Assembly (NCBI RefSeq): GCF_002215215.1
Contig: NZ_CP018632.1
Location: 2,724,501 to 2,788,500 of the forward strand
Direction of reading: 5' to 3'
DNA: 64,000 bases
Origin: Granulosicoccus antarcticus IMCC3135
GTDB taxonomy: Bacteria; Pseudomonadota; Gammaproteobacteria; Granulosicoccales; Granulosicoccaceae
Shown: piece by piece, positions 31,071-37,558 of the stretch
Layout: each line of letters starts with the position of its first letter
Numbering within the stretch: the first letter of the stretch is position 1
The notes under the pieces: model-generated
Database searches by the model: none
What the model was told of the DNA's origin: nothing
What the model saw: the letters and a program-made list of their open reading frames with translations, nothing else
Position numbers and translations under genes: made by a program

Positions 31071-31192
31071 AAGACTGACCATCAAAAGCAAGGTTGACAG
31101 GCTCTTGATGATAGCAGCTACGCCCGCTGGCAGGCCCCTTGCGCTACCATGCGTATTGGAGCCCGTATGACCCAACTTTTATAGCTGATCGC

Positions 31193-32080
31193 ATGAGTGC
31201 TGAGCCGCGCCCGCTGACTATTCTCTTCGCTGATATTGGCAGCAGTGCTGCTTTATACGAGCGCGTGGGTGATGCAGAAGCTTACCGCCTCATTGCTGAC
31301 AGCTTGACGCGCATGAGATTGGCCGTTGAGCAGAGCGGTGGCAAGGTTCTGCGAACAGTCGGTGATTCAGTGTTGGCCAGTTTTGAGCACAGCGATGAAG
31401 CTTTTCTGGGGGCGCGGGCTATCCAGCGAGCCCATCAGGATATTCCCCTGGCAGTTCGAATCGGATTCCACACCGGTTCGGTCATACCCGATGGCGGCGA
31501 CGTCTATGGACATGCCGTCAATATTGCTGCTCGCGTGGCCGCTTTTGCCCGGGTCGATGAAATTGTGGCGACTGCAGAGGCCGTGCAGCAGCTCTCAAGT
31601 GTGCATCAGTCGTTTGTTTCCAGTGCAGACTCGATTGAGGTGCGAGGTACACCCGAAGCCGTCGTCGTACATCGTCTGCAATGGCAGGAACAGCCGACGG
31701 CCGTCACTCAGCTGGCCTCGCGCGAGGAATACGAAAAGGTTCAGGCCCATGATCTGCGATTACGAATCTGTCATCAGCGGGTGGTCCTGTACGCAGGCTC
31801 CGAGCACATCGATGTCACGCTGGGTCGTGCCAGTGATAACGATATAGCGGTAGCCAATGATGAAGCCAGTCGGCATCATGCGAGTATCCGTTACCGCTAT
31901 GGACAGTTTCTGTTGCATGATGAGAGTACCAATGGCACCTATGTCAAAAAGGACTCGCTGGCGCCGTTTCTGGTACGAAGGGACTCGATTGTGCTGGATG
32001 GCACCGGCGTTATCTGCCTGGGAGCAGTGCCTGGGCAGAATGCGGCGGAACTGATTGAATTCGAGTTACTGCAAAACTGA
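31193..32080 (+). CDS. Class III adenylate cyclase with C-terminal FHA domain
   Basis: A 295-residue protein from the ATG at 31193; an upstream ATG at 31139 would add 18 unconserved residues. The cyclase domain (about 10-170) keeps the key residues. The metal aspartates are in LFADIGSS and VGDSVLASF, the adenine-specifying pair is Lys in GGKVLRTVGD and Asp in DVYGHAVNIAARV, and the latter also holds the transition-state Asn and Arg. An FHA phosphothreonine-binding domain follows (about 205-280), with LGRASDNDI, ASRHHASI and STNGTYV. There is no membrane segment. A soluble cyclase controlled by a phosphoprotein partner is inferred. It may be co-transcribed with the PfkB kinase 36 bases downstream. 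Confidence 0.88.
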   Translation: MSAEPRPLTILFADIGSSAALYERVGDAEAYRLIADSLTRMRLAVEQSGGKVLRTVGDSVLASFEHSDEAFLGARAIQRAHQDIPLAVRIGFHTGSVIPDGGDVYGHAVNIAARVAAFARVDEIVATAEAVQQLSSVHQSFVSSADSIEVRGTPEAVVVHRLQWQEQPTAVTQLASREEYEKVQAHDLRLRICHQRVVLYAGSEHIDVTLGRASDNDIAVANDEASRHHASIRYRYGQFLLHDESTNGTYVKKDSLAPFLVRRDSIVLDGTGVICLGAVPGQNAAELIEFELLQN

Positions 32081-33153: not shown

Positions 33154-35382
33154 CTAGAAGCGTGCCAGAATCTGGTTGAATGTCTGGCTAGGTCGCATGA
33201 TCTGCTCGCACTTGGCAATGTCCGGATTGTAGTAACCGCCAATATCGACAGGTTTACCCTGTACCGCCACCAATTCTTCAAGAATGGCTACCTCGGCTTC
33301 TCTCAGGGCCTTGGCCAGCGGTGCGAAATGCGCCTGTAGCTGCGGATTGTCACTTTGCTGCGTGAGCGCTTCGGCCCAGTACATGGCAAGGTAGAAATGG
33401 CTACCTCGGTTGTCCAGTTCATTGACACGTCGTGATGGTGATTTGCCTTCGAGCAGCAGCTTGCTGGTTGCCGCATCCAGGGAGTCAGCCAGAGTCTGAG
33501 CACTGGTGATATCGGCATTGATGGCAAAATGCTCCAGCGAAACAGCCAGTGCAAGGAACTCACCCAGTGAATCCCAACGCAGGTGATTCTCTTCAACGAG
33601 CTGTTGTACATGCTTGGGAGCTGAGCCGCCTGCACCTGTTTCGAACATGCCACCGCCTTGCATCAGAGGTACGATCGAGAGCATCTTGGCACTGGTGCCC
33701 AGTTCCAGAATCGGGAACAGGTCAGTCAGGTAGTCACGCAATACGTTGCCGGTGACAGAGATGGTCTCTTCACCGTTCTTCAGACGAGCCAGTGTAAAGC
33801 GAGTTGCCTCTTCAGGTGACATGATGCTGATGGCAAGACCCTCAGTGTCATGATCCTGCAGGTAGGTATTGACCTTGCTGATCAGCTGACTGTCGTGTGC
33901 ACGTTTGTCATCGAGCCAGAAGATGGCAGGGCTACCCGTGGCGCGGGCACGAGAAACAGCCAGTTTTACCCAGTCACGAACCGGTTCGTCCTTGACGTTG
34001 CACATGCGCCAGATATCACCAGTCTGCACTTCATGGCTCATCAGGACAGTGTCGCTGGAATCCACTACCTGAATGGTGCCGTCTGCCGGTATTTCGAAAG
34101 TCTTGTCGTGAGAACCATACTCTTCAGCCTTCTGTGCCATCAGGCCGACGTTGGGCACAGTACCCATGGTGGCAGGGTCGAAAGCTCCGTTGGCACGACA
34201 GAAGTTGATCGTTTCCTGATAGACGCCGGCGTAGCAGTTGTCAGGAATCAGTGCTTTGGTGTCCTGCAATTGACCACTGCCATTCCACATTTTTCCCGAC
34301 GTACGGATCATGGCTGGCATGGAGGCATCGACGATGACATCACTGGGCACATGTAAATTGCTGATGCCCTTGTCCGAGTTGACCATGGCAAGAGCAGGGC
34401 CTTTCTCGTAACAGGCTGCAATACACTGCTTGATAGCTTCCTGTTCGGCGGCTGGCAGAGACTCAACCGCCTCCAGTACACTTCCCAGGCCATTGTTAGG
34501 ATCAGCGCCAGCGGCGGCCAGCGTCTCGCCAAATTGTTCGAACAACTCGGCAAAGTAGGCGCGTACAGCATGTCCGAAAATGATGGGGTCCGAGACTTTC
34601 ATCATCGTGGCTTTCAGGTGCAGTGACAACAATACGCCTTGATCCTTGGCTTCATTGATCTGTTCGATCAGAAAACTGCGCAATGCCTGTCGGCTCATGA
34701 AGGTTGCATCAGCAATTTCACCGGAGAGCACGGACAAACCGGATTTGAGTACCGTGATTGAACCATCCGCTGCGACATGTTGAATGCGCAGTGTGTCATC
34801 ACTGGCCATGGTCACGGATTGCTCGTTAGAGTAGAAGTCTCCAGAGCTCATATGGGACACATGGGAGGCCGATTCACTGGACCAGGCACCCATGGCGTGA
34901 GGGTTGGTACGGGCATAGTTCTTGACCGCTGCGGGGGCGCGTCGATCGGAGTTACCTTCACGCAGGACGGGGTTTACGGCGCTGCCCTTGACTCGGTCGT
35001 AGCGTTGACGAACATCCTTTTCTTCGGCAGTGCTGGCGTTGTCAGGATACTCAGGTAGATCGTAGCCCTGTGACTGCAATTCGGCGATTGCGACCTTGAG
35101 CTGCGGGATGGAGGCACTGATGTTGGGCAGCTTGATGATATTGGCTTCAGGCTGGGTAGCCAGTGAGCCAAGCTCGCTCAGCGCATCATGTGTCTGCTGT
35201 TCAGCCGTCAGGCGGTCGTTGAACTGGCACAGAATGCGGGATGCGAGGGAAATATCCCGCGTTTCCACGGAAATGCCTGCCGCTCGGGTGAAGGTCTGAA
35301 CAATGGGCAGAAAGGAATGAGTCGCCAGAGCAGGGGCTTCATCCGTAAGTGTGTAAATCACAGTAGGACTGCGGTCGGTCAT
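33154..35382 (-). CDS. icd: Isocitrate dehydrogenase (NADP), monomeric type
   Basis: TCA-cycle enzyme that oxidizes isocitrate to 2-oxoglutarate with NADP. This is the large monomeric class (about 740 aa), unrelated in length to the 415-residue dimeric Icd. The product is 742 aa from the ATG at 35382 ([20 protein letters not shown]); an upstream ATG at 35415 adds 11 unlikely residues. Family stretches are [49 protein letters not shown]-like [16 protein letters not shown] and DIGGYYNPD. It lies next to a malate-synthase-G-like domain gene, so control of the glyoxylate branch point is a possible theme. Confidence 0.95.
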
Positions 35383-35551
35383 TGAGAGCTTCACCGTGGA
35401 GGAGGGAACTCGCAATGGTCGTACTTCTGCCTGTCAAAATCAAGTCATGGTGGCGTCGATGCGGTTGATTCACAGCATTTGTGGAGCTACCGCAGACAAT
35501 CGAACGGGGTCTTGAAGGGGTCGGTATCGAACCCTTCAGAACCAATGATTA

Positions 35552-35890
35552 TCAAGCATCGAGAGATGTCAGCAACTGCATGCGATGTTTGGGGCAAGCG
35601 TCAGAAGCCGTAACCTTGCGAGTGGCGGGCTCTATTTCAACCTGAATACCGTGGTTGCCAAGCAGGATGGACTGCGGGGCTTCGGGGTTACCGCCCGCAT
35701 CCAGAAACTGTGACGGAGTTTTCAGTGAGGTAGTTGTGCCATCTGCCTGAATGACAACCAGATGTTCAAAATGCACGAGATAGGCGATAGCGGTGCCGTG
35801 AGACCCTTGCGACAGTGGGAACGTTGAATCAAGCATATCAACGGATTGTTCCCAGCTGGCTGAGGTGCGAAATGGTTGGTTGGTACCCAT
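35552..35890 (-). CDS. Small protein resembling the inserted alpha/beta domain of malate synthase G
   Basis: A 112-residue protein, well supported as a gene by GGAG 8-9 bases before its ATG. The stretch PLSQGSHGTAIAY followed by TTTSLKTPSQFL, PEAPQSILLGNHG and IQVEIE lines up, from memory, with one segment of malate synthase G. That segment is the alpha/beta domain inserted before the catalytic barrel (roughly residues 135-260 of about 725). None of the barrel or the catalytic Arg/Asp regions is present, and I find no further malate synthase sequence in the flanks. It may be a domain preserved for a new role or a remnant. It is divergent from the DUF3612-type regulator at 36041 and lies 169 bases upstream of icd. 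Confidence 0.7.
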   Translation of the reverse strand: MGTNQPFRTSASWEQSVDMLDSTFPLSQGSHGTAIAYLVHFEHLVVIQADGTTTSLKTPSQFLDAGGNPEAPQSILLGNHGIQVEIEPATRKVTASDACPKHRMQLLTSLDA

Positions 35891-35986
35891 GGCTGTAACT
35901 CCTGCAACTTGTGATTATGTTATGTCAAAGGTGCTGTTCCCTGACTTCATGTATACAGTAGCGGCAGAGCCACAAGATTTAAACTA

Positions 35987-36023
35987 AAATTTCACTGTAG
36001 AAATTTCACACTGTTTATTTCAC
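35987..36023. repeat. Three 14-bp-spaced direct repeats (TTTCAC motif) upstream of the XRE regulator
   Basis: AAATTTCAC occurs at 35987-35995 and 36001-36009, and the variant TTATTTCAC at 36015-36023, giving an exact 14-bp period. The array ends 17 bases before the regulator's ATG, in the 150-bp divergent region shared with the malate-synthase-G-like gene. It looks like an operator array, perhaps for autoregulation. Confidence 0.65.
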
Positions 36024-36040
36024 AAAATAGCGGGTGTCCC

Positions 36041-37558
36041 ATGACAAGTGCTTCTGCGATCCGTAATGCCCATTTTCTGGGTACCAAAATCAGAAATCTG
36101 CGCAAACGCAATAATCTGACCATGGACGACTTGTCGGCCCGCTGTGTGAAAGTCGATGCCGAGTCGGCGCCTTCGGTGTCCTATTTGTCGATGATCGAGC
36201 GAGGCAAGCGGCACCCGAGCGAGAAGATGCTGGGTGTGATTGCCGAGGTTTTCCAGAAGGATATCCGCTGGTTTCTCGACGATGTGCCTGATGAAGTGTC
36301 CATGGCGCCTGACAAGGGAAGCCGCGGCGGTATGCGAGGCATGGCGCTGGAGCCCGGGTTTTTGTTTTCCAGAGAAATTCTGCAAAACGCCATTCCGGAA
36401 ATGCTGTCGCAGACAGGGGTCTCGGGTCGGCAGTTTGCGCACTTGCTGATTCGGGCGCATCAGGAAAACAACCAGAACCACTTCCCTGAGCTGGAACGCG
36501 CTGCGGAAGCGGTGGGTAAAAAACAGATGCCTATCAGTCTGGATGCTCTGACTGAAATCTGTAAAAACATGGGCATGAGCATCAAGTGGTTTACCAAGGT
36601 GCCCAAGACGGCATCCGCCAGCATGCTCTTGCGCGACAAGATGGTGGTGCGCTCGTTTTTCGAGGCGCCCTCAACGATTCATGTCAACAAGCTGATGCAG
36701 ACCCAGCCTGCACGATTGAAATACGAGCTTGCCCTGTATATCGGTCACAAGGTTCTGCATGACGGAGACGGGGTCAAAAGCATCGCAACCACCGGGCCCG
36801 GCGACAGTGATGTCATGCGTGATACCGGCCTTGATATTGAGACTTCCAGTGCGGTTGATGCGCAGGATATTGTCCACGCCTGGCGAGATTTCGAATGCAG
36901 CTTCTTTGCAGGAGCCTTGCTCTGCCCGAAAGTACCTTTTCGGCGCTTGCTGGAGCAACGCGCCCACGATATCAACGTCAGCAGCATGCTGGAGGTAACC
37001 ACCTCGGTTGTCATGCGGCGGATGACCGTTGTTTCCTCATACCCGCACTGGCATTACTTTGATGCCTATCCCCCTGGTCGTCTGTTGGCGGTTTATCGCG
37101 GCAACGGCATTCCTCTGCCCTGGGGGAATATGCGTATGGTGCAGGACCCGTGTCAGCATTGGGCTGTCTTTCGCATGATCAATTCGAACACCGACGAGGC
37201 TTCCGCGCAAATCTCGGTGATGGATGTGGGGTCGCAGCCGCGTATATTTTGCTGCGAATCGGTCAACGTCAATGACCTGTCCGGTAACAAGCATGTGTTG
37301 TGTGCCGGTATTGATGTGAACCCGGCATTGGAAGCACAGGGAGCTGATGCAGCAGGATTGGCGCAAAGTCTGAAAGCTGCGTGCAATGCCAATGGCGGAT
37401 CGGTGGAAATTCCAGCCGCTATCCGCAAGGAGCTTCAGCAAACCGCCAAGCTGTTGAATATCGAATGGCTCAACCGAGGAATAGAGAAGCAGGCGCGCAT
37501 GATCTGCCCGCGAATCGGTGCCTGCCCTCGGACACCGAGTTGTCATGCCGGCGTCTAA
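36041..37558 (+). CDS. XRE-family transcriptional regulator with DUF3612-type C-terminal region
   Basis: A 505-residue DNA-binding protein. Residues about 12-75 form an XRE helix-turn-helix (LGTKIRNLRKRNNLTMDDLSARC, SYLSMIERGKRHPSEKMLGVI). The rest matches, as far as I recall, the DUF3612-type family found near central-carbon genes in gammaproteobacteria. It contains a second HTH-like stretch (ISLDALTEICKNMGMSIKWF) and an IrrE/DUF2083-like region with clustered cysteines near the end (CPRIGACPRTPSC). RamB-type regulators with a similar layout control acetate and glyoxylate genes, which fits the adjacent malate-synthase-like protein and icd. The effector is unknown. Direct repeats lie just upstream. 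Confidence 0.8.
   Translation: MTSASAIRNAHFLGTKIRNLRKRNNLTMDDLSARCVKVDAESAPSVSYLSMIERGKRHPSEKMLGVIAEVFQKDIRWFLDDVPDEVSMAPDKGSRGGMRGMALEPGFLFSREILQNAIPEMLSQTGVSGRQFAHLLIRAHQENNQNHFPELERAAEAVGKKQMPISLDALTEICKNMGMSIKWFTKVPKTASASMLLRDKMVVRSFFEAPSTIHVNKLMQTQPARLKYELALYIGHKVLHDGDGVKSIATTGPGDSDVMRDTGLDIETSSAVDAQDIVHAWRDFECSFFAGALLCPKVPFRRLLEQRAHDINVSSMLEVTTSVVMRRMTVVSSYPHWHYFDAYPPGRLLAVYRGNGIPLPWGNMRMVQDPCQHWAVFRMINSNTDEASAQISVMDVGSQPRIFCCESVNVNDLSGNKHVLCAGIDVNPALEAQGADAAGLAQSLKAACNANGGSVEIPAAIRKELQQTAKLLNIEWLNRGIEKQARMICPRIGACPRTPSCHAGV

Follow-up and report, generated by a model that had tools for sequence, protein, structure and literature searches.

Identity of the 112-residue protein

The window, i.e., the whole stretch of 64,000 nucleotides of the marine bacterium Granulosicoccus antarcticus IMCC3135 that was analysed, contains a gene whose product of only 112 residues resembles a small part of malate synthase G (MSG, GlcB). 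The question raised by this locus is whether such a part, hereafter referred to as remnant, is a working protein with a partner of its own or what was left behind by a deleted enzyme gene. The features of the locus are the following:

33154–35415, minus strand: monomeric NADP isocitrate dehydrogenase, the next gene on the remnant's strand, with the true start probably at the ATG at 35382 (open reading frame list and profiles)
35552–35890, minus strand: stand-alone MSG insertion-domain protein of 112 aa; the genome has two copies, of which this is copy A (profile, alignment, dN/dS, structure model)
35759–35770, minus strand: codons 41–44 (F-x-H-L), a beta-hairpin motif that marks regulator-linked MSGs and almost all remnants (alignment; hairpin position from DSSP on the model)
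35899–35903, minus strand: AGGAG ribosome-binding site of the 112-aa open reading frame (sequence)
35988–36024, plus strand: putative operator of DUF3612, a conserved 37-bp element of the divergent promoter region (motif search, 0 mismatches, 0 expected by chance)
36041–37558, plus strand: DUF3612 transcription regulator with HTH, IrrE-like, and C-terminal domains and a PrpR/RamB-like fold (profile and structure model)

The 112-residue protein matches the alpha/beta insertion domain of MSG (Pfam PF20658; 57.6 bits, E = 1.4e-15, gathering cut-off 24.8 bits) and only this domain, aligning with residues ~173–250 of the E. coli, Mycobacterium, and Pseudomonas enzymes. Its AlphaFold2 model is of moderate confidence (pLDDT 72, pTM 0.59), and the best 50 Foldseek rows from the PDB were all MSG (TM(query) ~0.7). 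The domain assignment made in the sequence-only reading, which had left the strand (minus) unstated, thus was confirmed by profile and structure comparison with no sign of a different fold, as were a good ribosome site (AGGAG ~9 nt upstream of the ATG start), the position between the monomeric icd and a DUF3612-type regulator, and the lack of any catalytic MSG part near 35552–35890. Consisting of the insertion domain alone, with no TIM barrel carrying the active-site motifs, the protein falls outside TIGR01345, the family of the MSG enzyme. It has sequence and fold in common with the GlcB insertion domain, but differs from GlcB by the loss of all catalytic parts, by another hairpin, and by being a regulator-linked, stand-alone protein. 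To our knowledge, no function has been assigned to the MSG insertion domain.

Seventeen further stand-alone homologues could be aligned with the protein, and the dN/dS values of remnant pairs with unsaturated dS ranged from 0.10 to 0.34. The open reading frame therefore is not a chance occurrence, and the codon comparisons indicate that the remnants are under purifying selection. Against NCBIfam NF006511 (PRK08951; 190 aa), the protein scored 70.9 bits, which is under the family cut-off of 173 and makes it a relative rather than a formal member. PRK08951 proteins are likewise stand-alone insertion domains, and the members examined are divergent to a DUF3612 gene or have the putative operator; the window protein differs from them in being shorter, in its score below the cut-off, and in its position, copy A standing before idh and copy B before aceA. 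Within an uncharacterised set of proteins that includes PRK08951 it is the shortest form, and it is not a local relic. NF006511 bears the name "malate synthase", yet its members of ~190 aa lack the catalytic part, so that this annotation is misleading.

Gene order in the Granulosicoccaceae

In its fullest form, the locus of the Granulosicoccaceae consists of a DUF3612 regulator gene divergent to the MSG remnant, which is followed by aceA (PRK06498 type, 532 aa) and monomeric idh. The locus is split in the window genome (7.78 Mb), where copy A lies with the regulator and idh and copy B (60% identical) directly before aceA; a full MSG of 725 aa is encoded elsewhere. The suspected link to the isocitrate/glyoxylate branch point is borne out; in Granulosicoccus, the remnant is the first gene before aceA and/or idh. 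A second monomeric isocitrate dehydrogenase (G000:C1:749838-752060) shares 57% identity with the window's enzyme.

Remnants of 110–115 aa are found in one genus of the family, and proteins of ~400 aa, which are MSGs with internal deletions, occupy the same position in another. The active-site motifs MDEERRT, FLDRTGDE, and EDRATLRISSQ were looked for in these ~400-aa forms and are absent. Full MSGs are least conserved in the insertion domain (mean identity 0.44 vs. 0.51–0.68), which in the ~400-aa forms is the most conserved part (0.63 vs. 0.24–0.28 for the N-terminal and catalytic parts, with 0.25–0.28 for the catalytic regions alone, and 0.54 for a short stretch just before the domain). Other relatives have lost the remnant and carry the regulator beside aceA, or regulator and aceA apart; it is gone in G008, G020, and G026 and eroding in G014. 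Since the regulator is kept without any remnant at 10 Granulosicoccaceae loci, the remnant is not essential to the regulator. DUF3612 was present in 24/24 Granulosicoccaceae genomes with a remnant vs. 12/24 without one (uncorrected for phylogeny).

Distribution in the phylum and reduction of glcB

A phylum-wide sample of 398 genomes was searched with profile NF006511 (PRK08951) and for DUF3612. Pattern searches of genome contigs retrieved stand-alone copies only from the Granulosicoccaceae, probably because the patterns were too specific, and the other copies were found by the profile. PRK08951 matches occurred in several further families as open frames of 160–225 aa and one of 360 aa. Stand-alone homologues beside icd or DUF3612 regulators, which the sequence-only reading had proposed to look for, exist both within and beyond the Granulosicoccaceae. 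DUF3612 was present in 21 of the 398 genomes, namely in 16/16 remnant genomes vs. 5/382 others (Fisher p = 1e-24, uncorrected for phylogeny). In the latter five (G538, G553, G622, G733, and G741), the gene divergent to the regulator encodes a full MSG whose active-site motifs are intact, and aceA follows. An MSG or MSG remnant is divergent to the regulator in 21/21 DUF3612 genomes if the broken copy of G755 is counted. A TAG stop breaks the frame of this copy (C1:3310128-3310523), which lies beside the DUF3612 regulator and has retained the operator.

The comparison of these loci shows that the ancestral arrangement was a DUF3612 regulator divergent to an active glcB-aceA pair, and that what remains as the 112-aa protein is the insertion domain of an MSG once linked to DUF3612. 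In the regulator tree, the remnant-bearing Vibrio-like, f193, f194, and f140 sequences form one clade (100/95) within a larger clade that also contains five full-MSG sequences, and the Granulosicoccaceae form another clade (99/94). Unless full MSG was regained, this tree implies that glcB lost its active site and was shortened at least twice, in separate lineages, with the insertion domain kept both times. The sequence-only reading had considered either a regulatory element or a relic of glcB. Descent from a glcB once present at the locus is upheld, since relatives keep glcB-aceA divergent to the same regulator, but a dead relic does not agree with a conserved and apparently regulated gene. 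A simple relic of a deleted glcB is rejected by the dN/dS values, the independent reductions, and the retention of the operator.

The DUF3612 regulator and its putative operator

The regulator in the window scored 303.8 bits against PF12268, above the Pfam cut-off, and its model matched PrpR of M. tuberculosis (6cyj) with a VIA Z of 24.9 and an rmsd of 3.5 over 279 residues. Its score against RamB (NF038139) was 14.6 bits, from the HTH part only and far from the cut-off of 700. In common with the ScfR regulators PrpR and RamB it has the architecture of HTH, IrrE-like, and C-terminal, putatively CoA-binding parts, in addition to the PrpR fold match, but it differs by its DUF3612 C-terminal family, ~16% identity to PrpR, another operator, and the companion MSG remnant. 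PrpR and RamB bind CoA esters and regulate isocitrate lyase, and the glyoxylate cycle is under the control of RamB (PMC6765138, PMC10370305). Judging from the modelled fold, DUF3612 proteins may sense acyl-CoA. Conserved Cys residues near the regulator's C-terminus are only suggestive of an ScfR-like binding of CoA thioesters and a [4Fe4S] cluster.

The 37-bp motif upstream of the regulator (AATTTCACAAnAnAAATTTCACAnTGTnAATTTTACA) was found once or twice per genome in 18 genomes, and the reversed control pattern never. A shorter core gave at most four matches in any of 32 genomes, against a single control match overall. Second sites are located before unlinked remnants (copy B of G000, G012, G019, and G024, as well as G467, G577, G637, G719, and G213, whose remnant lies at L089:8048-8614, minus strand), before aceB-aceA (G496, G745, and G723), and before aceA in G008, G020, and G026, which no longer have the remnant. 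No operator was found in the regulator-less relatives G005, G017, and G031. Based on a position-weight score, the operator precedes 18/18 remnants tested, including the eroded one (41–60 bits, some of these sites having been used to build the matrix), and was not found upstream of the full MSGs that G000 and G467 encode at unlinked loci. The regulator's putative operator stands upstream of the remnants, and among the genomes tested none has a remnant without the regulator. From this distribution across genomes we infer that the DUF3612 protein binds the motif, which is regarded as its putative operator.

Other Granulosicoccaceae have further operator sites in front of pntAB, a formyl-CoA transferase gene, and a small number of other genes, and a wider DUF3612 regulon around NADPH and oxalate/glyoxylate is possible. 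Core-operator sites with one mismatch were seen before pntA-pntB, encoding NAD(P) transhydrogenase (G040 C113:19346), and before a formyl-CoA transferase gene (G038 C80:10582). The operator was also observed before or beside a gene for a reductase-like protein of 350–370 aa (ILILGASYGSLL...; G037 C41:38997, G029 C139:26452, G038 C78:28097, and G021 C83:21394), and the one member scanned gave no NCBIfam match.

A hairpin signature of regulator-linked MSGs

In the model, residues 41–44 ([FYH]-x-[HN]-[LIMVF]) lie at the turn between strands 34–40 and 43–48. The motif is present in 45/48 remnants and in 6/7 regulator-associated full MSGs (a set that includes G290, whose regulator sits on another contig). 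None of the 21 unlinked MSGs has it; a D/N-G-type turn is found in most of them. As it also occurs in regulator-associated full MSGs, the motif predates the reduction. The signature could reflect plain common descent of one linked MSG clade.

Proposed role of the remnant

The remnant is probably a dedicated regulatory protein and not debris, and its gene is probably switched by the DUF3612 regulator that accompanies it. By association, this regulator is the best-supported partner of the remnant. In an exploratory analysis of distance correlations, remnant and regulator remained correlated given AceA (partial r = 0.39, 0/5000 permutations), and the correlation of remnant and AceA given the regulator was 0.09 (p = 0.10). 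Together with the counts of partner presence, these correlations favour a feedback partner of the regulator over an effector of isocitrate dehydrogenase (Idh) or isocitrate lyase. Our preferred reading, which we hold tentatively and at slightly less than an even chance, is that the remnant is a regulator-coupled pseudoenzyme domain that acts as feedback partner by binding the DUF3612 regulator. The insertion domain of regulator-linked MSGs would have had an additional role outside catalysis, as a protein contact recognisable by the hairpin motif; once either a second MSG or AceB had taken over malate synthesis, the contact domain alone would have been kept. The contact partner would most likely be the DUF3612 regulator as a presumed acyl-CoA-sensing, PrpR/RamB-like factor that controls the remnant gene together with glyoxylate-shunt and isocitrate genes; the remnant would bind and tune it as a feedback co-repressor or anti-regulator. 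The two remnant copies of the window genome precede the genes of competing isocitrate enzymes (idh and aceA), and each branch may thereby report its own expression to one regulator. This reading is weakened by several Vibrio-like genomes, where strong operators were found only at remnants and regulator, leaving a pure feedback partner without obvious output, and by the loci mentioned above that keep the regulator without any remnant. More broadly, and with somewhat greater reserve, the presumed acyl-CoA-sensing regulator and the stripped MSG domain may form a two-gene control module based on a contact already present in the active enzyme; at least two lineages would then have pared a trigger enzyme down to its trigger. 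If true, this would provide a role for the MSG insertion domain, explain a protein family without a name of its own that currently carries the annotation "malate synthase", predict operator, ligand class, and partner of DUF3612 regulators, and illustrate how an enzyme was stripped, in two lineages or more, to its regulator-contacting part.

It is possible, albeit rather unlikely, that the remnant is instead the effector of the circuit, with its level set by the DUF3612 regulator, and redirects flux between the TCA cycle and the glyoxylate shunt by binding to an enzyme of the isocitrate node (monomeric Idh or isocitrate lyase). Such a role would resemble that of AceK, the isocitrate dehydrogenase kinase/phosphatase of E. 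coli, in acting at the same branch point, but the remnant has no kinase domain and an unrelated fold. Its place as first gene before aceA and/or idh in Granulosicoccus would suit an effector, as would the presence of monomeric Idh in 22/22 genomes tested, the clades' own base rate aside; moreover, the remnant looks like the output in G467, G577, G637, and G719, where the only operators found belong to regulator/remnant and a second remnant. However, Vibrio-like and other remnants are mostly unlinked to aceA or idh, and the distance correlation with AceA vanishes given the regulator. The 532-aa type isocitrate lyase, which is missing from 8/16 remnant genomes of the phylum sample, is weakened as a candidate partner.

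We consider it improbable that the remnant has no protein function and is a promoter-proximal leftover whose frame or position supports downstream expression as a leader or by translational coupling. Its position as first gene after the operator in Granulosicoccus and its decay or loss in the four relatives named above would fit this explanation, but purifying selection acts at the amino-acid level, most Vibrio-like, f193, and f194 loci have no co-oriented gene directly after the remnant, unlinked second copies persist with an operator, and the same domain was retained convergently. Binding to full-length malate synthase, e.g., as a heteromeric regulatory subunit, had been proposed from the sequence; it would suit the remnant's origin from MSG and is conceivable where a full MSG exists elsewhere, as in the window genome, but is very improbable, as the window genome's own MSG has no operator and no full MSG was found in 8/16 remnant genomes of the phylum sample (G496, G522, G604, G683, G723, G725, G745, and G755, the last with a broken remnant), which weakens full MSG as a candidate partner.

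Relation to published work

A literature search found no papers on DUF3612 or PRK08951. For Vibrio vulnificus, stationary-phase induction of a "glcB, malate synthase-related protein" alongside aceA/aceB has been reported (PMC10014275). Part of the sequence family is already catalogued as PRK08951, with a name that misleadingly suggests an enzyme. In the literature searched, neither the regulator-operator-remnant module nor the reductions nor the hairpin signature seem to have been described. Elsewhere in the window, positions 31139–32080 (plus strand) encode an adenylate/guanylate cyclase catalytic domain and an FHA domain in one protein.
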